This document shows, piece by piece, positions 21,293-31,227 of a DNA stretch of 37,110 nucleotides. The DNA lies in assembly GCA_030605835.1 (NCBI GenBank), contig JAUWHO010000007.1, positions 1-37,110 on the forward strand. The letters are read 5' to 3'. Position numbers and translations under genes: made by a program. Origin of the DNA: Candidatus Zixiibacteriota bacterium (GTDB taxonomy: Bacteria > Zixibacteria > MSB-5A5 > DG-27). Each line of letters starts with the position of its first letter. The first letter of the stretch is position 1. Below the pieces are notes generated by a model that searched no databases, was not told the origin of the DNA, and saw only the letters and a list, made by a program, of their open reading frames with translations.

Positions 21293-24200
21293 ATGATAAG
21301 AGTTAAGTCGATAAATGAATTTAGGCAACTAAGGGAGCACTTGGTAGCAAATCTTGATCCAACAATCCCTACCATTGTCATATGTGCTGGAACAGCATGC
21401 CAGGCGAGTGGATCAAACGATATTATGCGGGTAGCCAAGAAATATATCCTACAGAAACATCTCGTCGATGAGATTAAAATCAGGATCACGGGATGCCATG
21501 GGTTCTGCGAAATGGGCCCGTTTATTCTCTCCGAACCGCAGAACGCCTTCTACCATAAGGTGACGATTGATGATGTTCCCCGCATTATAGATGCTGTTCT
21601 CGCCGGCGATTATGTTGAGGAACTATTATATACAGACCCCAATACGGGTGAGAAATACTACAGACAGGATGATATTCCGTTTTTCAAAAATCAACAGCGC
21701 ACCATATTCAGCAAGAATCAGCTAATCGACCCAATTCGTATCTATGACCATATTATCAACGGAGGCTACAAAGCCGTCGAAAAAACACTTTCCCAAATGA
21801 CCCCGACGCAAGTTGTGGCGGAGGTGAAGTCATCCGGGCTTCGGGGTCGCGGCGGTGCCGGCTTTCCCACCGGATTAAAATGGGAGCTGTTGGCCAAGCA
21901 GTCGAGTGACAACGGGAAATATATTGTATGCAATGGAGACGAAGGCGACCCCGGCGCTTATATGGATAGAAGTCTCCTCGAAGGCAATCCCCACAGTATC
22001 ATCGAAGGAATGACCATAGGTGCTTATGGCACCGGCGCAACCGAAGGCGTAATTTACGTGCGTAACGAATATCCTCTGGCAATCAAGCATCTGATTATAG
22101 CCATCCGCCAGGCTCACGAACTCGGCGTTCTGGGTAACGACATCCTGGGAACGGGCTTCTCTTTCGATATTGACCTGGTCAGGGGAGCCGGAGCATTTGT
22201 ATGCGGAGAGGAAACAGCCCTGATGAGGTCCATCGAGGGAGAAGTGAGCGAACCGCGTCAACGGCCCCCCTATCCCGTGGAGAAAGGTATAGATGGTAGG
22301 CCCACGGTCATCAATAACGTTGAAACCTGGGCTAATATCCCGTTCATCATCAACCTCGGCGCCTCTGAATATGCGAAGATAGGAACTGAGGGGAACTCCG
22401 GCACCAAGATCTTTAGCCTCGTAGGGAAGATCAAGAACACCGGCTTAGTCGAGGTGCCCATGGGCATAACTATTAAGAAGATTATTAATGACATCGGCGG
22501 CGGTCCGGTGGGGAAGGCCAGAATCAAGGCGGTGCAAACCGGGGGCCCCTCCGGCGGCTGTATCCCCGCCAGAATGTTTGATCTACCCATCGATTACGAC
22601 AGCCTCGCCGAGGCCGGATCGATTATGGGCTCTGGCGGCATGATCGTCATGGACGAGAACACCTGCATGGTTGATGTCGCCAGGTATTTCATGAAATTCC
22701 TGAAAGATGAATCATGTGGCAAGTGCTTTACCTGCCGGAAGGGTACCCAGCGCATGTATGAGATTCTCGATGATGTCTCACGCGGGAAAGGAACATTGGA
22801 GCAACTTGATCTTCTTGAGGAATTGGCATTGGTGGTGAAGGATACCACCATGTGCGGCTTAGGACAATCCGCCCCGAATCCGGTTTTGAGTACCCTCCGC
22901 TACTTCCGCGAGGAGTACGAACGGCACCTCATCCAAAAAAGGTGCGATGCTTTTGTCTGTAAGGAACTGGTGGGAGCGCCATGTCAGTCAGCTTGCCCGG
23001 TGGGCACCGAAGCCTGGCGGTATGTGGCGCACATTGCCCGGGGTGAATACCAGGAGGCCTACCGCACCATAAGGGAGGCCAACCCCTTCCCTTCAGTTTG
23101 CGCCAGGGTTTGCAACCATCCTTGTGAAGATAAGTGCCGGGCGGGAACCAGTGGCGGCCAGGCGATAGCCATTCGGGCTCTGAAGCGCTTCGTAACCGAT
23201 CACGTCGACCCCTCAGTCTATGAACCCGAAAGGATCAGAAAAGCGGACGATGATTCGCCCAGGGTAGCTATTATCGGTTCAGGGCCCGCTGGTCTGAGCG
23301 CTGCTCATTATCTGTCCCTCTATGGTTACAAGGTAACAGTCTTCGAGGCTGAAGATGAGCCTGGTGGGATGTTGGTCAGCGCTATCCCTGGTTATCGCTT
23401 GCCGAGGGAGGTGGTGGGCAAGGAAATCGATTCGCTCATAGACGAAGATATCACCCTGAAGTGCAATACTGCTTTTGGCCGTGATGTGACAATAGATAGT
23501 CTCTCTGACGACGGCTACAAGGCAATTTTTGTAGCCATGGGGGCTCACAGAAGCCGCCGGCTTGAAATCGAAGGTGAAGACTCAAGCGGCGTTTATCCCT
23601 CCATGCAATTCTTGAAAGCGTTCAACCTCCGAGGAGAAAATTTGGCTTCAAGAGGTGTGGTAGTCGTAGGCGGCGGGAACTCAGCCATAGATGCCGCCAG
23701 GGTAGCGCTTCGCCAGAAAGCGGTGGAAAGCGTGACTGTAATATATCGCCGCACCCGCAATGAAATGCCCGCTTATGAGGAAGAGATTGAGGCCGCAATC
23801 GAGGAAGGAATAGAGATTCAAACCCTGGTCTCTCCCGTGAGAATTCTCTCCCAGAATGGTCGCATAACAGCTGTGGAATGCATTAAAAATGAACTCGGGG
23901 AGATCGACTCCAGCGGGCGAAGAAGGCCTGTGCCGGTGTCCGGTACAGAGCATACCATACCTGCTGACACCCTGATAGTCGCCGTTGGTGAACAACCGGA
24001 CACAGGTGGCATATCCTCAATGGGCCTTGAAATCAGCAAATGGGGTACATTGTATGCCGATCCTGACACCCTCTCTACGAACCTGCCGGGAGTGTTTGCG
24101 GGCGGGGATGTGGTGAGTGGCTCCAACACCGTCATTGATGCCATCGCCGCCGGGAAAAAAGTCGCTTCGGTGATAGATCGTTACCTGCATGGCGAAAAGC

Positions 24201-24466
24201 TTAAGCAACCATACGAGGCCTGTCTGCCCCGAATCTATATAGAGCCAACTGCAATCAGTGTTGAAGAGGCAGACCAGGCCGAAAGAGCAAGACCGCCGTC
24301 TCTTCCGGTGGAATCGCGGAGACACAGTTTTTCCGAGGTGGATCTGTCGCTCTCTTCTGAGGAAGCGGCTCAGGAGGCTAAAAGGTGTCTAAGGTGCGAT
24401 TTAGAATTCACCCAGCCAAAAGAAGAAAAGATTGAAGAACCGGCAACGGGAGTCAAGACGACATGA
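21293..24466 (+). CDS. NuoF-type NADH-binding flavoprotein fused to a GltD-type NAD(P)H oxidoreductase
   Basis: A 1057-residue fusion. Residues 25-120 are a thioredoxin-like [2Fe-2S] domain (C31, C36, C68, C72). Residues about 145-540 are NuoF/HndC with NADH/FMN motifs GRGGAGFPTGLKW, NGDEGDPGAYMDR and GAGAFVCGEETAL and the [4Fe-4S] ligands C475, C478, C481 and C521. From about 550 begins a GltD/NfnB-type module: a Fe-S domain (PCQSACPVG, CARVCNHPCEDKC), an FAD site GSGPAG (662-667), an NAD(P) site GGGNSAIDAAR (793-803), AGGDVVSGSNTVIDAIAAGK and the tail CLRCD. Such a protein has two flavin sites and two nucleotide sites, so it could exchange electrons between NADH, NADPH and ferredoxin or the glutamate-synthase-like subunit. 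Its stop overlaps the next start (ATGA). Confidence 0.92.
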   Translation: MIRVKSINEFRQLREHLVANLDPTIPTIVICAGTACQASGSNDIMRVAKKYILQKHLVDEIKIRITGCHGFCEMGPFILSEPQNAFYHKVTIDDVPRIIDAVLAGDYVEELLYTDPNTGEKYYRQDDIPFFKNQQRTIFSKNQLIDPIRIYDHIINGGYKAVEKTLSQMTPTQVVAEVKSSGLRGRGGAGFPTGLKWELLAKQSSDNGKYIVCNGDEGDPGAYMDRSLLEGNPHSIIEGMTIGAYGTGATEGVIYVRNEYPLAIKHLIIAIRQAHELGVLGNDILGTGFSFDIDLVRGAGAFVCGEETALMRSIEGEVSEPRQRPPYPVEKGIDGRPTVINNVETWANIPFIINLGASEYAKIGTEGNSGTKIFSLVGKIKNTGLVEVPMGITIKKIINDIGGGPVGKARIKAVQTGGPSGGCIPARMFDLPIDYDSLAEAGSIMGSGGMIVMDENTCMVDVARYFMKFLKDESCGKCFTCRKGTQRMYEILDDVSRGKGTLEQLDLLEELALVVKDTTMCGLGQSAPNPVLSTLRYFREEYERHLIQKRCDAFVCKELVGAPCQSACPVGTEAWRYVAHIARGEYQEAYRTIREANPFPSVCARVCNHPCEDKCRAGTSGGQAIAIRALKRFVTDHVDPSVYEPERIRKADDDSPRVAIIGSGPAGLSAAHYLSLYGYKVTVFEAEDEPGGMLVSAIPGYRLPREVVGKEIDSLIDEDITLKCNTAFGRDVTIDSLSDDGYKAIFVAMGAHRSRRLEIEGEDSSGVYPSMQFLKAFNLRGENLASRGVVVVGGGNSAIDAARVALRQKAVESVTVIYRRTRNEMPAYEEEIEAAIEEGIEIQTLVSPVRILSQNGRITAVECIKNELGEIDSSGRRRPVPVSGTEHTIPADTLIVAVGEQPDTGGISSMGLEISKWGTLYADPDTLSTNLPGVFAGGDVVSGSNTVIDAIAAGKKVASVIDRYLHGEKLKQPYEACLPRIYIEPTAISVEEADQAERARPPSLPVESRRHSFSEVDLSLSSEEAAQEAKRCLRCDLEFTQPKEEKIEEPATGVKTT

Positions 24467-25140
24467 TCACATTGACCATAAACGGCCTGGATCTTTCTGT
24501 TGAGAAAGGTACCACGCTGCTTGAAGCGGCAAGATTCTTTGGATTTCCGATACCGACTTTATGTCACATGGACGGACTTTCTCCCTACGGTGCCTGCCGA
24601 CTCTGCGTGGTGGAAATAGGCGAGGGATCAAAAGCAAAGCTGGTTTCATCCTGCACCTACCCAGCCGAGGAAGGGCTGAAGGTGAGAACCGCATCTTCAC
24701 GGGTTGTCAAGGCGCGCAAGATGATATTGGAGCTTCTGCTGGCCTCCTGCCCGCAATCAAAAATTATCCAGGATTTAGCTTCAGCACACAACGTAGGCCA
24801 GCAACGTTTCAGACAGGAACACGAAGACTGTATCCTGTGCGGGCTATGTGTAAGGATGTGCAAGGAGCAAATGATGGCAAAGGCTATCGGCTTCCGCGGG
24901 CGAGGAGAAAAACGTAGTATCGGGACGCCGTTTGACATTAAATCGGATGTTTGTCGATTATGTGGTGGGTGCATTTATGTCTGTCCGGCGTGCCAGCTAA
25001 GATGTACCTATAACGAACCGGAAAAGGCGATCTGTGGCGCTTGTGCCAATCTAAGCCCGCCCTGTATTGAGAAGGAAGAATTTGACGACATGATGTGCTC
25101 CATGGAGCCTTGTGTCGCATGTGAATTAGATAAAGATTGA
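24463..25140 (+). CDS. HoxU/NuoG-N-like ferredoxin subunit with extra cysteines
   Basis: A 225-residue iron-sulfur protein. The N-terminal [2Fe-2S] ferredoxin fold has ligands C34, C45, C48 and C64 (PYGACRLCVVE). A region like the NuoG histidine-Cys domain ('MILELLLASCP') follows, then two [4Fe-4S] motifs: C123-x2-C126-x2-C129-x3-C133 and C164-x2-C167-x2-C170-x3-C174. A Cys-rich tail (C177, C181, C191, C194, C201, C212, C217, C220) goes beyond what HoxU or NuoG usually have. It lacks the catalytic domain of NuoG or the H cluster of [FeFe]-hydrogenase, so it is an electron wire between NuoF and another partner, probably the glutamate-synthase-like subunit encoded next. Confidence 0.88.
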   Translation: MITLTINGLDLSVEKGTTLLEAARFFGFPIPTLCHMDGLSPYGACRLCVVEIGEGSKAKLVSSCTYPAEEGLKVRTASSRVVKARKMILELLLASCPQSKIIQDLASAHNVGQQRFRQEHEDCILCGLCVRMCKEQMMAKAIGFRGRGEKRSIGTPFDIKSDVCRLCGGCIYVCPACQLRCTYNEPEKAICGACANLSPPCIEKEEFDDMMCSMEPCVACELDKD

Positions 25141-25163
25141 TGAAATAAGTGGAGGAGGACACA

Positions 25164-26753
25164 GTGTCGATAACGCTCTCGAGAATAAACGCTTCCGCAG
25201 CGACCTTAACGAAAAACAGAACCGAAGACTCGGTGACACCGATATCGGGCATGTGCGTCACCTGTGTGGATGGATGCATCGGCATGTGCGAGATAGGCAA
25301 ATCGGCCTACCGGGGTCATGAGGTGATTTATCCGCAGCCGTTCGGGATAATTACCACAGCTGCCGAAAAAAGATATCCCGTCGATTACTCCCATTTCAAT
25401 ATAATGGGGACTGCCGTTGGCGCCCACGGTATTGAGGCCGACAGTAACAAAGCCATCTTTCCGGCAGTTAACCTCGAAGTTGCCTTTGGCCACGATAAAG
25501 GGATAAAGTTTCGCTGCCCATGGATCATACCCGGTATTGGCTCGACGGACATCGCCAAGAACAACTGGGAAGGACTGGCCATAGGTTCTGCAATGGCGGG
25601 AACCGGCCTGACGATCGGCGAAAATGTTGTCGGCATGGATCCGGAATCGGAAATAAAGAACGGTCGGGTGGTCGATACCGTTGACCTTAAGCGGCGCGTC
25701 AAACTCTACAAAGACCACCAGCACGATGGCTATGGAGCCATCATCGTTCAGGCCAATGTCGAGGACACTCGCTTAGGAGTTCAGGAGTATGCTATCGAAA
25801 AACTTGGCGTTGAGTGTGTTGAATTGAAGTGGGGTCAGGGCGCCAAGGATATCGGTGGTGAAGTTAAAGTAAAAAACCTCAAAAAAGCCCAGATGCTATA
25901 TAAGCGGGGCTATATTGTCCTGCCGAACCCAACCGATCCAGCCGTAATTAAGGATTTTGAACGCGGGGCATTTAAAGAATTCGAGCGCCATTCGCGGGTG
26001 GGCATGGTCTCAGAAGAGTCATTCGCAAAAAGGGTCGAGGAACTGCGTAAAGCGGGCGCCAGGTATATCTTCCTTAAAACCGGAGCTTATCGTCCTGCGG
26101 ATCTGGCGCGAGCGGTCAGGTTCACATCCAAATACAAGCTCGACCTCCTAACGGTCGATGGTGCCGGCGGCGGAACCGGGATGAGTCCTTGGCGAATGAT
26201 GAATGAATGGGGGGTGCCGCCAGTAGAGTTGCACTCGCTCTTATACAAATATGCCAAACGCCTGGCTGATAGAGGCGAACATGTTCCCGCACTGGCATTG
26301 GCCGGAGGTTTTACATTTGAGGACCAAATATTCAAAGGGCTTGCTCTGGGCGCTCCATATGTGAAGCTCATAGGTATGGCCCGGAGTCCGATTGCGGCCG
26401 CAATGGTAGGCAAAACCATCGGGCGCACTATCGATGAGAATCAGATTCCTGTCTATGTGGAACGATTCGGAAATACGAAAGACGAAATTTTTGTGACCGC
26501 TAACTCACTGCGCCGGGAATTAGGCGATGACGAATTCGAAAAAATACCAACCGGAGCGCTTGGACTTTATACCTATTACGAACGTTTGGCCCAGGGATTA
26601 CGCCAGCTCATGTGCGGTAGTCGAAAGTTTGCGCTCAATCACATATCGCGGGATGACATCGCGGCCCTTACCCACCAGGCCGCTGACATCAGTGGTATTC
26701 AATATATAACCGACGCTGACAAAGAGGAAGTGGAGAAAATCCTCAAACAATAA
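25164..26753 (+). CDS. FMN-binding glutamate-synthase-like subunit
   Basis: A 529-residue protein from the GTG at 25164, five bases after GGAGGAGG; the upstream GTG at 25149 sits before this ribosome site. It is the FMN-barrel domain of the glutamate synthase superfamily: GAGGGTGMSPWRMMNEWG, LALAGGFTFEDQIFKGLALG and APYVKLIGMARSP are the expected loops. The N-terminal CVTCVDGCIGMCEIGKSAYR adds four cysteines (C31, C34, C38, C42). The classic C-x5-C-H-x3-C-P [3Fe-4S] motif of GltB is not seen, and there is no glutaminase domain or C-terminal GXGXG domain. So it resembles the stand-alone archaeal/anaerobe class. The substrate may be 2-oxoglutarate plus ammonia, or something else. Confidence 0.85.
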   Translation: MSITLSRINASAATLTKNRTEDSVTPISGMCVTCVDGCIGMCEIGKSAYRGHEVIYPQPFGIITTAAEKRYPVDYSHFNIMGTAVGAHGIEADSNKAIFPAVNLEVAFGHDKGIKFRCPWIIPGIGSTDIAKNNWEGLAIGSAMAGTGLTIGENVVGMDPESEIKNGRVVDTVDLKRRVKLYKDHQHDGYGAIIVQANVEDTRLGVQEYAIEKLGVECVELKWGQGAKDIGGEVKVKNLKKAQMLYKRGYIVLPNPTDPAVIKDFERGAFKEFERHSRVGMVSEESFAKRVEELRKAGARYIFLKTGAYRPADLARAVRFTSKYKLDLLTVDGAGGGTGMSPWRMMNEWGVPPVELHSLLYKYAKRLADRGEHVPALALAGGFTFEDQIFKGLALGAPYVKLIGMARSPIAAAMVGKTIGRTIDENQIPVYVERFGNTKDEIFVTANSLRRELGDDEFEKIPTGALGLYTYYERLAQGLRQLMCGSRKFALNHISRDDIAALTHQAADISGIQYITDADKEEVEKILKQ

Positions 26754-26824: not shown

Positions 26825-28051
26825 TTATGAGGGCTTGAGGGTCAATATGACTTCTTCGCGCATTCGACCCTGCAACTGCTTCCCTGATCTGTGAGAGCTA
26901 GGAGGCGGAAGGTACCGTCGATTATCCGGTAGGTTTCGTCGGCTAGATGATTTCAGAACGAGACCATGGAAACCCGCCAGAATTCTAATCGCGGCAGAAT
27001 TTCGGACGAAAACACCCCGGATTGTAGAGTCACCTACCACGAGCACAACTCTCCCGCAAGGTTTGACGACTCGTTTGATTTCCCGTAGGACTTGATCCAT
27101 ATCTGCCACATATCTAGCCAACATTCTCTGTACACGCAAGGGTAGCTCCTCCATCTCACCCATTTCGCTCAGAAGTCTAGACGTATATCCATCGTCAATA
27201 CATGCGCCTGACGAGACCTCAGAGCCGATATTGTTGGACCTTATCTCCCGTATGTCGCGTAGTCTATACCCCATCCAAACAAGGGATAACCTATGACCCC
27301 GTAAATAATCGATAGCGTTCAAGTATGGAGGTGAGGTTAATACAAGGTCAACACTACTGTCTTCCAGCGGGAGGTTCCGGGCGTCTACCTGCTGAACTTC
27401 TGCCGAGGGCAGGCCGTGGCGAACCCCAGTGAACGAAGAAGCCTTGATGACCTTTTCTACCGAATACAGGAACTCGTCAAGAGAACGAATGGGTGCCTGC
27501 CGATAGACGCGATGAGGACGGCTGTGTGAGATGTCCATGCCCAGACTTACTCCGACCTTTTTCGTAATGACCAGACGTGAAAGAGCGCACCACAACAACA
27601 ACTGTGTTTCTGTATCTCTTACTCGTGAGATCGTCTGAGTGAGAGCTGCTAGCTGTTTTCTATTCAAAGGGTCAAACCAAAACCGAATGAACGCTCGTGT
27701 CTCCTCATCGGCTCTCGATGGATATGCCTCTCCCAGAGAGAGCTCTCGCAGTCGTCGTCGCGCTCTTTCCTTAACCTCTCTCGCCTTCCTTCTCAGTTCC
27801 AAAGGATCGATGTCAGAGGACCATGCCCGCGCTATCAAGACAGCAAGAGGATCTGTATCAAAGCCAATAGCTTCATGACCCTGTATCCTCGCCGCCACTA
27901 GCGTCGTGCCGGAACCCACCATGGGGTCGAGTACTCGCATCTTCTGTCCATGCATAGCAAGGACCTCCCAGACAATAGATGGTGCCATTCGAGCCGGGAA
28001 AGGATGTACGGGTCTTATCGTAGAACTTTGCCTAGTGAGGTCAGCAGCCAT
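26825..28051 (-). CDS. DNA methyltransferase (m4C/m6A-type)
   Basis: A 408-residue methyltransferase. The SAM-binding motif I is DPMVGSGTTL (about 42-51), preceded by HPFPARMAPSIVWEVL, which is common in stand-alone N6/N4 DNA methylases. The catalytic motif IV is TSPPY (about 239-243), typical of amino-methyltransferases that act on cytosine N4 or adenine N6. The ~190 residues between them probably hold the target-recognition region. Its start overlaps the stop of the ATPase gene by one base (TAATG on the minus strand), so the two are coupled. Predicted role: protects host DNA from the partner nuclease. Target sequence unknown. Confidence 0.9.
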   Translation of the reverse strand: MAADLTRQSSTIRPVHPFPARMAPSIVWEVLAMHGQKMRVLDPMVGSGTTLVAARIQGHEAIGFDTDPLAVLIARAWSSDIDPLELRRKAREVKERARRRLRELSLGEAYPSRADEETRAFIRFWFDPLNRKQLAALTQTISRVRDTETQLLLWCALSRLVITKKVGVSLGMDISHSRPHRVYRQAPIRSLDEFLYSVEKVIKASSFTGVRHGLPSAEVQQVDARNLPLEDSSVDLVLTSPPYLNAIDYLRGHRLSLVWMGYRLRDIREIRSNNIGSEVSSGACIDDGYTSRLLSEMGEMEELPLRVQRMLARYVADMDQVLREIKRVVKPCGRVVLVVGDSTIRGVFVRNSAAIRILAGFHGLVLKSSSRRNLPDNRRYLPPPSSHRSGKQLQGRMREEVILTLKPS

Positions 28052-30570
28052 TAGTTGCCAGATTGATCCGTTTGCTCAAGCAATTTGGAGTATATGGATC
28101 GCTGGCGCAACGCCTCAGGTAACTTGCCAGTATTCGCGCGGACTTGCTCAAGGATCCTCTCTGGGCGCACCTCTAAGCTCACTACATCGCGGCCAATGTA
28201 CACCAGCCCTCCAGAGAAGCGTCTAACACTCTGCATCCACTCTTCAATCTCCATCTCGCGAATACGCTTGAACTTCTTATCCTTCAGTCTTAATCTCTCC
28301 GCAACAGCAGCGAATTTCACAGGGTCTGGAGAGCTCTTTTGCATCTCAAAGATGGTGTCAAGAATCTCCGGCAGCGGACCTTCTGGTATGTCTTCGTCTA
28401 GAATACTATTAATCCACTTCCGAGTTTCCAAGGGGCCTCTACATTTCTCGAACATCTGTTTGAGCCGTGTGAATCCCAGAGGTCGTATTGACCCCGTTAA
28501 GACCAGAAGTGCGAAATCGTTAATGGTAGCGAGAGTAATAGCTTGCTGCTTCGCCTCCGTCACGACGGCCGAGTTCTCATCCTCCATCCCCTGAAAACCA
28601 GGTGCAACCACCAAAGCAAAAGCGGCATTGTACTTGGCTTTATGTCGTGCAATCGTCGCTGCACCCACAGTGCCAGCAGAGATTCGACCTTCTCCGGAGC
28701 TCTTCGCATCATACGTGATAAGGTAGCCTGGACCCTCCAACGAATCGCCTTCTTTGAATCCGAGAGGAGCCCAAGCCAAACCATCTGGTTTACCTTTCCC
28801 GCCTAAACGCGTGACTTCAAACCCTACGCTTCTCAGCCCCTGATAGACAGCATCCTCAAGACCCTTCCAATCACTCTTGCTATCCTTGAGAAGTTCTGAC
28901 ACCAGCACAGCAGACAATTGGGTCCTGTAAACCAGTTCCCGAAGAAGTCTGTCCCTACGTCTGATGATTCGTCCGATTAGGTCAAGAGAAAGGTCTTCCT
29001 CTACGAGAAACGCTTCTGTCAGTATCTCAGAAACCGCCAGAAGCTCGAAGGGTTCGTGATTCTTGTAATGCTCTTCATAATTGGCGAAGTATGGGTGCAG
29101 TATGTTTATCAGTATTGCTTGATCCTCAGGATCGAATACCGCCATGAACTGCTCTATTCCAAGACATTCGAGTCGAACTTCCTTGAAGAAATCCTCAGAC
29201 TCCATTTCCTGCTCAAGCCTCTCCACTAGTACCTGCCTTTGAACTTCGTCCAAATCGGGCGGAACACGGGTGAGCAGGAGACTACGTATAGAGCCATCTA
29301 GCACCTTCTTAATCGCTCTAACTAACGGTTGCCTGGAGAGACTAAGAGGTGCCCTGCTGACACGGTGAGAAACTGATTCCTCAGCTATCTTCTTGCCCAA
29401 CCACTGTTCATAGTAGGCCCGAGCCTCATTGAACTTCTCCTTTAGATATGTCCGGAAATTGATAACACCGGCCGCACTTTCCAGAACTGACTCGCGCGTT
29501 GAGCGGAGATAATCATCCAGCCCATCTGCATGGATTACCATTCGAAATCGAGAAAAGGCACCATGAGACAAGGGTTCTAGTCCAAAATAGGCATCGCTAG
29601 TATTCACCAGCCGCCCACGGATCATTACAAAGAAACCTTCACTTCTGGCCCACTTTTCGGCCTTTCCCCCTGTCAAACTCGCCTGATAGATCTGAACCTT
29701 ACCGTGAGTTTCCCCAAGCTCAGGGACGATTACTCTGGGGGCTTTCCTTTGCGGACCACGGATGTCGTAGCCCAATACCGTCGCCACCTTGTCGTCCTTC
29801 CCGATTATCCATTCTTTGAGCACTGGGATACTTGTCCGAGAGGGTCTGAGTTCTTCACCATTGTAAAAGAGCTTGAATCTGGGATTCAGAGGTAAGGCCG
29901 TGGCGAGAACCCACTTCAGCCTTCCAGGGGTCAGGCCTCTTGCGAGGTCTGTGAGGTTCCCGAGTACAGCAACAGTCCATGAAGGGGACGCATGCTTCCC
30001 AAACAGGTTTATCGCTCTGGAGCCAGGATCATCAGAATTTAGGGCCTCTGAAAGTAATCCCTTAGCCTGGTCTGCTGTGAGCTCGCGTAAATCCAAATAG
30101 AACTGTGATTCGTCTGCCTTCCTTTCAATCTCTTCGAAGTCCATTGTAACCGCGCGGTACTTCCTTCCGACCTTGGAAACATGTGTCAACTCCTTCCCTA
30201 GGACATAGGTCGCAAGCTTGCCGATTCCAAACTTACCAATTGGAGGTCTCTCCTCGGATTCTCGGTCGGGGTCTCTCTTCGTTGTGCTTCCGACCAACCA
30301 CAGCTCATTCATGCCGTTTACATCCATGCCTTCTCCGTCATCGATAACCCATATCCTAGCGTCGGGCGCGCTTATCTCATCAGGATCAGGTATGATGATA
30401 CATACGTGTGTGGCAAAGGCGTCATAGGAATTTGCGACCAGCTCCTCGATGGCCTTGAACGGACTGGAATAAAGACCCCTCGAAAAATGTTCTATGATAT
30501 GATAGCTAAGCCTTACTGGGACCTGTGAGATCTTCCTGCCGGCCGCAGCAATAGCATGAGTCTTTACCAT
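28051..30570 (-). CDS. GHKL (MORC/MutL-like) ATPase with C-terminal PD-(D/E)XK-type nuclease domain
   Basis: A protein of 839 residues from the ATG at 30570 (the TTG two codons earlier is less likely). The N-terminal GHKL ATPase has KAIEELVANSYDA (N box), WVIDDGEGM (G1) and GKFGIGKLATYVLG (G2). It is followed by a transducer-like region and a long helical middle. The C-terminal part has 'GKGKPDGLAWAP', then YLITYDAKSSGEGRIS, a likely PD...DxK nuclease core. MutL/MORC-like ATPases linked to restriction-modification operons are known from genome surveys (Iyer, Abhiman and Aravind 2008). Together with the methyltransferase this forms a likely phage-defence unit. The exact subtype is not recognised. 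Confidence 0.85.
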   Translation of the reverse strand: MVKTHAIAAAGRKISQVPVRLSYHIIEHFSRGLYSSPFKAIEELVANSYDAFATHVCIIIPDPDEISAPDARIWVIDDGEGMDVNGMNELWLVGSTTKRDPDRESEERPPIGKFGIGKLATYVLGKELTHVSKVGRKYRAVTMDFEEIERKADESQFYLDLRELTADQAKGLLSEALNSDDPGSRAINLFGKHASPSWTVAVLGNLTDLARGLTPGRLKWVLATALPLNPRFKLFYNGEELRPSRTSIPVLKEWIIGKDDKVATVLGYDIRGPQRKAPRVIVPELGETHGKVQIYQASLTGGKAEKWARSEGFFVMIRGRLVNTSDAYFGLEPLSHGAFSRFRMVIHADGLDDYLRSTRESVLESAAGVINFRTYLKEKFNEARAYYEQWLGKKIAEESVSHRVSRAPLSLSRQPLVRAIKKVLDGSIRSLLLTRVPPDLDEVQRQVLVERLEQEMESEDFFKEVRLECLGIEQFMAVFDPEDQAILINILHPYFANYEEHYKNHEPFELLAVSEILTEAFLVEEDLSLDLIGRIIRRRDRLLRELVYRTQLSAVLVSELLKDSKSDWKGLEDAVYQGLRSVGFEVTRLGGKGKPDGLAWAPLGFKEGDSLEGPGYLITYDAKSSGEGRISAGTVGAATIARHKAKYNAAFALVVAPGFQGMEDENSAVVTEAKQQAITLATINDFALLVLTGSIRPLGFTRLKQMFEKCRGPLETRKWINSILDEDIPEGPLPEILDTIFEMQKSSPDPVKFAAVAERLRLKDKKFKRIREMEIEEWMQSVRRFSGGLVYIGRDVVSLEVRPERILEQVRANTGKLPEALRQRSIYSKLLEQTDQSGN

Positions 30571-30989: not shown

Positions 30990-31094
30990 CTCTTCTCGGA
31001 CGAACAGAATTGGACAGATCAGGCAGGCCTCATGGTGAGGAATGCGCACTCAACACCTCTGTGTAATGTGTTGAAATACAAGGAGTTGTAGAGA

Positions 31095-31165
31095 CTGGGA
31101 GACAGGGATTCGAACCCCGATTCCACGGTCCAGAGCCGCGTGCCCTACCATTGGACTATCTCCCA
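31095..31165 (-). tRNA. tRNA-Gln (anticodon CUG)
   Basis: The minus strand folds as a full cloverleaf of 71 bases. The acceptor is TGGGAGA/TCTCCCA with discriminator G, the D arm is GTCC...GGGC with AATGGTA, and the anticodon stem is CGCGG/CCGTG with loop CTCTGGA. The T arm is CGGGG-TTCGAAT-CCCTG. Anticodon CTG reads CAG codons (Gln). The CCA end is not encoded. A good promoter lies about 60 bases upstream. Confidence 0.95.
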
Positions 31166-31227
31166 GTGCAACTGAATCATGGGACAGTCCGACCAGTTGC
31201 TGAGTCGCCTGTCGATAACCAAAGTCG

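Follow-up and report, generated by a model that had tools for sequence, protein, structure and literature searches.

A GHKL ATPase-nuclease gene and its neighboring DNA methyltransferase gene in a Zixibacteria genome form a predicted restriction-modification pair

What might a bacterium use a protein for that joins a GHKL ATPase to a nuclease and is encoded directly beside a DNA methyltransferase? The question is raised by two minus-strand genes in the window (i.e., the whole stretch of 37,110 nucleotides that was analyzed). Gene A (28051..30570) encodes a GHKL ATPase / PD-(D/E)XK nuclease of 839 aa, a predicted restriction endonuclease, and was delineated from its ORF, a HATPase_c_3 match, an alignment, and structural models. 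Gene M (26825..28051) encodes a TSPPY (N4-cytosine or N6-adenine) DNA methyltransferase of 408 aa, delineated from its ORF, Pfam N6_N4_Mtase, PADLOC MTase_II, and an alignment. According to the ORF listing, A begins with an ATG at 30570 and ends with the stop codon 28053-28051, and a TTG six bases upstream offers an alternative start that would yield 841 aa. The stop of A and the start of M, which runs from 28051 to 26825, have one base in common; the 839-residue ORF overlapping a TSPPY methyltransferase by one base, as claimed in a sequence-only reading of this DNA, is thus borne out by the coordinates.

The ATPase domain of A spans residues ~11-165 (30076..30540, minus strand), as judged from Pfam HATPase_c_3 (residues 35-163, E = 6e-18), invariant residues, and Foldseek matches to MORC2, MORC3, and TRAP1. 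The N box, DDGEGM, and GKFGIGK motifs named in the sequence-only reading are all present, in agreement with HATPase_c_3, as E43-x3-N47, D77DGEGM82, and 112-GKFGIGK-118. An S5-like transducer region follows at residues ~166-360 (29491..30075, minus strand), recognized by hhalign to an HgiDII-type profile and by Foldseek matches to MORC2 and MORC3. Within it, the stretch GFFVMIRGRLV (residues 312-322) fits 10 of the 11 positions of the MORC signature GhXhhpXXRhl; the exception is its polar position, where a hydrophobic residue (Ile/Val 317) stands. In the full-length model of A (pLDDT 79, pTM 0.49), the ATPase half matched DNA-bound MORC2, MORC3, and TRAP1. Given the near-signature and the structural matches, A looks MORC-like. 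The domains are weakly packed in that model, as its pTM indicates, and coupling between ATPase and nuclease is therefore not visible there.

Single-sequence searches of A returned no match C-terminal to the ATPase. The second catalytic domain, an Mrr/FokI-like PD-(D/E)XK nuclease core at residues ~560-665 (28576..28893, minus strand) with E572, D596, and D621-x-K623, emerged from motifs, models, and family-wide comparison. The PD...DAK core suspected earlier was located at P595-D596-G ... D621-A-K623. A model of residues 553-839 (pLDDT 92, pTM 0.87) predicts a PD-(D/E)XK fold, with E572 in the first core helix, D596 directly before a strand, and D621-x-K623 ending the next strand; its matches in the PDB by Foldseek include FokI (E = 2e-4) and HindIII (6e-4), followed by the nicking enzyme BspD6I and Hjc with lower scores. 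Among 25 family members searched with Pfam, Mrr_cat matched the nuclease in 10, Hjc in 2, and FokI_cleav_dom in 1, none of these matches being strongly significant singly (best 3e-5). In addition, hhalign aligned the A nuclease with an Mrr_cat restriction endonuclease of a Priestia plasmid at 98% (30% identity), and a PDB sequence search with the A nuclease profile gave chance matches only. The alignment of 26 A proteins shows no variation at E43, N47, D77, G79, the GKFGIGK loop, D596, or K623; E572 is retained in at least 90%, and either Glu or Asp occupies position 621. With both active sites conserved to this degree, the motifs in A are not there by chance.

Two parts of A are less conserved: a helical linker at residues ~361-552 (28915..29490, minus strand) and a C-terminal helical region at residues ~666-830 (28081..28575, minus strand), both delineated from the model and from per-domain identity, which is the lowest in A for these two (mean of 43%). 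M carries the motifs DPMVGSGTT and TSPPY, matches Pfam N6_N4_Mtase (E = 1.5e-10), and is covered over its full length by PADLOC MTase_II (1e-34); three of its stretches show the lowest identity (32-38%) in the per-domain comparison. Judging from sequence variation, these low-identity parts of A and M are likely the places of target recognition, and the C-terminal helical region of A is a candidate for the part that reads DNA.

How widely the family occurs was assessed by scanning 84,980 species genomes with a two-row alignment of the window A and a broken copy from the same phylum (L002, its two stops read as X). Outside the window, at least 32 loci (L015-L046) carry full-length or near-full-length A homologues with 26-53% identity. 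Among the matches listed, these span about 12 phyla (Planctomycetota, Myxococcota, Acidobacteriota, Nitrospirota, Chloroflexota, Pseudomonadota, Omnitrophota, Actinomycetota, Verrucomicrobiota, Bacteroidota, Zixibacteria, and a Micrarchaeota bin), most of the homologues being from metagenome-assembled genomes in which binning errors are possible. The loci are not all independent, given that L026 is a near copy of L039. The search of viral contigs with A gave one weak match, to the ATPase part only, and none of 27 plasmid records covered 80% of A. No model in Pfam, NCBIfam, or PADLOC spans the A family end to end. A Salarchaeum plasmid (L013 412-7550) encodes an 881-aa GHKL protein that is related to A over the N-terminal 225 residues and lies within a few genes of a DNA methyltransferase; Pfam finds nothing in its C-terminal part.

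Within the phylum of the window, full-length A was found in 2 of 132 genomes, and M relatives scoring above 200 bits in 2 of 129, exactly the two with full-length A; the A/M pair is accessory in this phylum. This patchiness bears on the idea that A is a housekeeping repair nuclease of the MutL kind, steered by methylation. The GHKL domain of A does weakly resemble MutL models, but the nuclease is Mrr/FokI-like, and the pair includes neither MutS nor any other repair gene, and we give this explanation hardly any credence.

The presence of M at the 32 A loci was assessed by a search with M combined with the ORF listing. Among the matches listed, a DNA methyltransferase adjoins A in 29 of the 32 loci: in 24 the partner is orthologous to M (at least 38% identity), in three it is a distant TSPPY methylase (L018, L038, and L046), and in two it is a C5-methylase, PF00145 (L040 and L044), i.e., TSPPY in 27 and C5 in 2 of the paired loci. 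At L044 (5496-9950), a distant homologue in Fibrella, a Vsr mismatch endonuclease accompanies the C5-methylase beside the GHKL nuclease. The placement of M also varies: it can be downstream of A, upstream of it (L026, L038, L039, and L046), or convergent (L016), so the link between the two is more than inherited gene order. Moreover, the class of the partner switches while A persists, and the conserved element is therefore "a DNA methylase," as self-protection would predict. In the A and M trees built from 20 shared loci, the better supported groups are concordant and the phyla are scattered in both, with some deep branches open and the long rows L018 and L038 unplaced.

The three listed loci lacking an adjacent methylase differ in kind. 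In L032, the contig ends within A, and M is present on another contig of the same genome; in L036, A is broken and there is no M. Only L037 (6001-8559) has an intact A with no methylase next to it, the sole true orphan among the matches listed, and its genome encodes several TSPPY methylases elsewhere, the closest 35% identical to M (L129). Decay is seen at other loci as well: A is broken and M intact in L034 and L035, and both are broken in L002 and L029, which are the same locus, an identity that points to Zixibacteria as the phylum of the window. In that Zixibacteria locus (L002 378-4650), two in-frame stops interrupt A, a frameshift disrupts M, and a phage-type tyrosine integrase (PF00589) lies directly upstream. 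At L041 (1548-3022), A ends after ~240 residues and is joined straight to the C-terminal portion of M, which looks like a deletion of the A/M junction.

Collectively, the conserved pairing with a methylase, the intact active sites, and the nuclease fold support a restriction-modification role for A and M, which we regard as a well-supported prediction from domain content, active sites, and pairing. The "restriction-modification-like" label given earlier thus holds up, on the nuclease model and on the pairing in 29 of 32 listed loci. A different role is illustrated by VcSduA, a GHKL-SduA_C protein of the paraMORC3 type (Shedu type I-D) that defends alone against phage and loses this defense with E27A in the ATPase or K557A in the nuclease (PMC12137116). 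By analogy, A might recognize some structure of the phage, for example DNA ends, with M as a side component or regulator instead of a means of self-protection. In VcSduA, as in A, a PD-(D/E)XK nuclease with E-D-(D/E)xK residues comes after the GHKL ATPase, and the orphan L037 fits such a role. However, SduA_C (DUF4263) matches none of the 26 A members in Pfam, and hhalign to five SduA_C domains gives a probability of 3%, and on these grounds we rejected the A nuclease as a Shedu/SduA_C domain. Furthermore, of the paraMORC3 proteins, which have a C-terminal nuclease, a subset is described by Iyer et al. 2008 as standing alone, whereas A is nearly always found beside a methylase whose class is exchanged. 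A Shedu-like role is accordingly very improbable.

The A/M pair in the window lies close to a tRNA-Gln(ctg) gene (31093-31166, minus strand, ~520 bp upstream of A), and the sequence-only reading had taken this as a common site of island insertion. The tRNA is there, but the insertion is unsupported: within the window there is no second copy of the tRNA-Gln 3' end and no GC shift. No useful empty site was found either; a same-genus genome, 52% complete, yielded no left-neighbor gene. We therefore rejected a tRNA-Gln island for want of a tRNA-end repeat, a GC shift, and a useful empty site. On the left, the pair is flanked by an operon (21293-26753) encoding a 1057-aa NuoF-GltD-like fusion, a NuoG-like ferredoxin protein, and a GltB-like glutamate synthase subunit. 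This operon is conserved in the class and present in five class relatives and G129; in the stretches examined, the A/M pair is not beside it and no tRNA was found.

Links between MutL/MORC-type ATPases and restriction-modification had been noted in the sequence-only reading as previously described, and they are: GHKL ATPases in restriction systems, including prokaryotic MORC operons, were reported by Iyer et al. 2008. Those operons, like A/M, place a MORC-like GHKL-S5 module near DNA methylases, and A resembles them in its S5 near-signature and in having MORC2 and MORC3 at the head of its PDB matches; in contrast to them, the A/M pair has no SFII helicase gene and the nuclease of A is fused to the ATPase. 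FokI/Mrr-type nucleases have the fold and catalytic residues of the A nuclease in common with it, but in A this domain is borne on a GHKL ATPase and not on a recognition domain or winged helix. MzaB of the MZA system has a MutL-like GHKL domain, and 22 of 26 A members match the NCBIfam MzaB model, yet only the ATPase region is similar and the other MZA genes are absent from the pair. Unlike Type I, Type III, and McrBC systems, A has no SF2 helicase or AAA GTPase motor, the sole ATPase found being GHKL.

A close likeness is to HgiDII/BbrUII (NF050001), in which a GHKL + S5-like N-terminal half (hhalign to A residues 10-394, 99.5%) belongs to a one-protein nuclease adjoining a DNA methylase, with genes that overlap or converge. 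A itself scores 81 bits against NF050001, over residues 21-155 only, versus a cut-off of 550; a Halobaculum protein in L097, used as a control, scores 801. The C-terminal profiles cannot be aligned (hhalign 0.1%), and the partner in those systems is a C5-methylase (M.HgiDII methylates GTCGAC; PMC5867850), whereas the window partner is TSPPY and only the distant homologues L040 and L044 have C5. Membership of A in the HgiDII family was therefore rejected on its C-terminal half, methylase class, and sub-cut-off score. The domain order, which the sequence-only reading did not recognize, thus has precedents in HgiDII/BbrUII and paraMORC3/VcSduA, from which A/M differs in its nuclease and usual methylase. 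We conclude that A/M is a well-supported variant of known GHKL restriction systems, having only the ATPase half in common with HgiDII/BbrUII, paraMORC3, and VcSduA.

These comparisons also raise the question of whether ATP is needed for cutting. A and M could be an ordinary Type II pair, the GHKL half serving only for dimerization or folding of the enzyme and cutting being ATP-free. Indeed, HgiDII/BbrUII, with the same ATPase half and a C5-methylase, are classed as Type II, and PADLOC labels both A and M as Type II. Among the papers searched, none states whether HgiDII-type enzymes need ATP, and a large review of Type II enzymes mentions neither GHKL nor ATPase (PMC4081073). What makes an ATP-free pair unlikely is that all of the GHKL site, N-box Glu/Asn and glycine loop included, has stayed unchanged in 26 diverged homologues, an argument that binding of ATP matters and that its turnover probably does too.

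To cut both strands, FokI-type nuclease domains must come together in twos, and GHKL ATPases dimerize upon ATP binding, so that ATP-gated pairing would be a natural license for cutting. The explanation that we consider probable is a two-gene restriction-modification system with ATP-gated dimeric cutting by A and self-protection by M. M would methylate a target sequence in host DNA, and A would cut DNA that does not carry this mark. A would dimerize via its GHKL/S5 half, which, like that of MORC, MutL, and gyrase, would shut around DNA upon ATP binding; closure would join two FokI/Mrr-like nuclease domains so that both strands are cut, and ATP hydrolysis would reopen the clamp. The dependence of VcSduA defense on both its ATPase and its nuclease residue speaks for this explanation. 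Restriction of DNA by the pair, methylation-sensitive cutting, and ATP gating of the nuclease are the three steps that we infer. More tentatively, and at somewhat less than even chances, the family may represent a distinct nucleotide-gated class of restriction with no motor along DNA, in which an ATP-closed MORC-like clamp joins two FokI-like nucleases and a methylase of interchangeable class gives self-recognition.

MORC-type ATPases act in DNA silencing in animals and plants. Their origin has been suggested to lie in bacterial restriction systems (Iyer 2008), where the role of the ATPase has hardly been tested so far. The A family adds a branch to these systems, of which defense libraries currently label only the ATPase part. 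With ATPase, nuclease, and methylase held in two genes and kept in about a dozen phyla, the A/M pair makes the role of such an ATPase directly testable.
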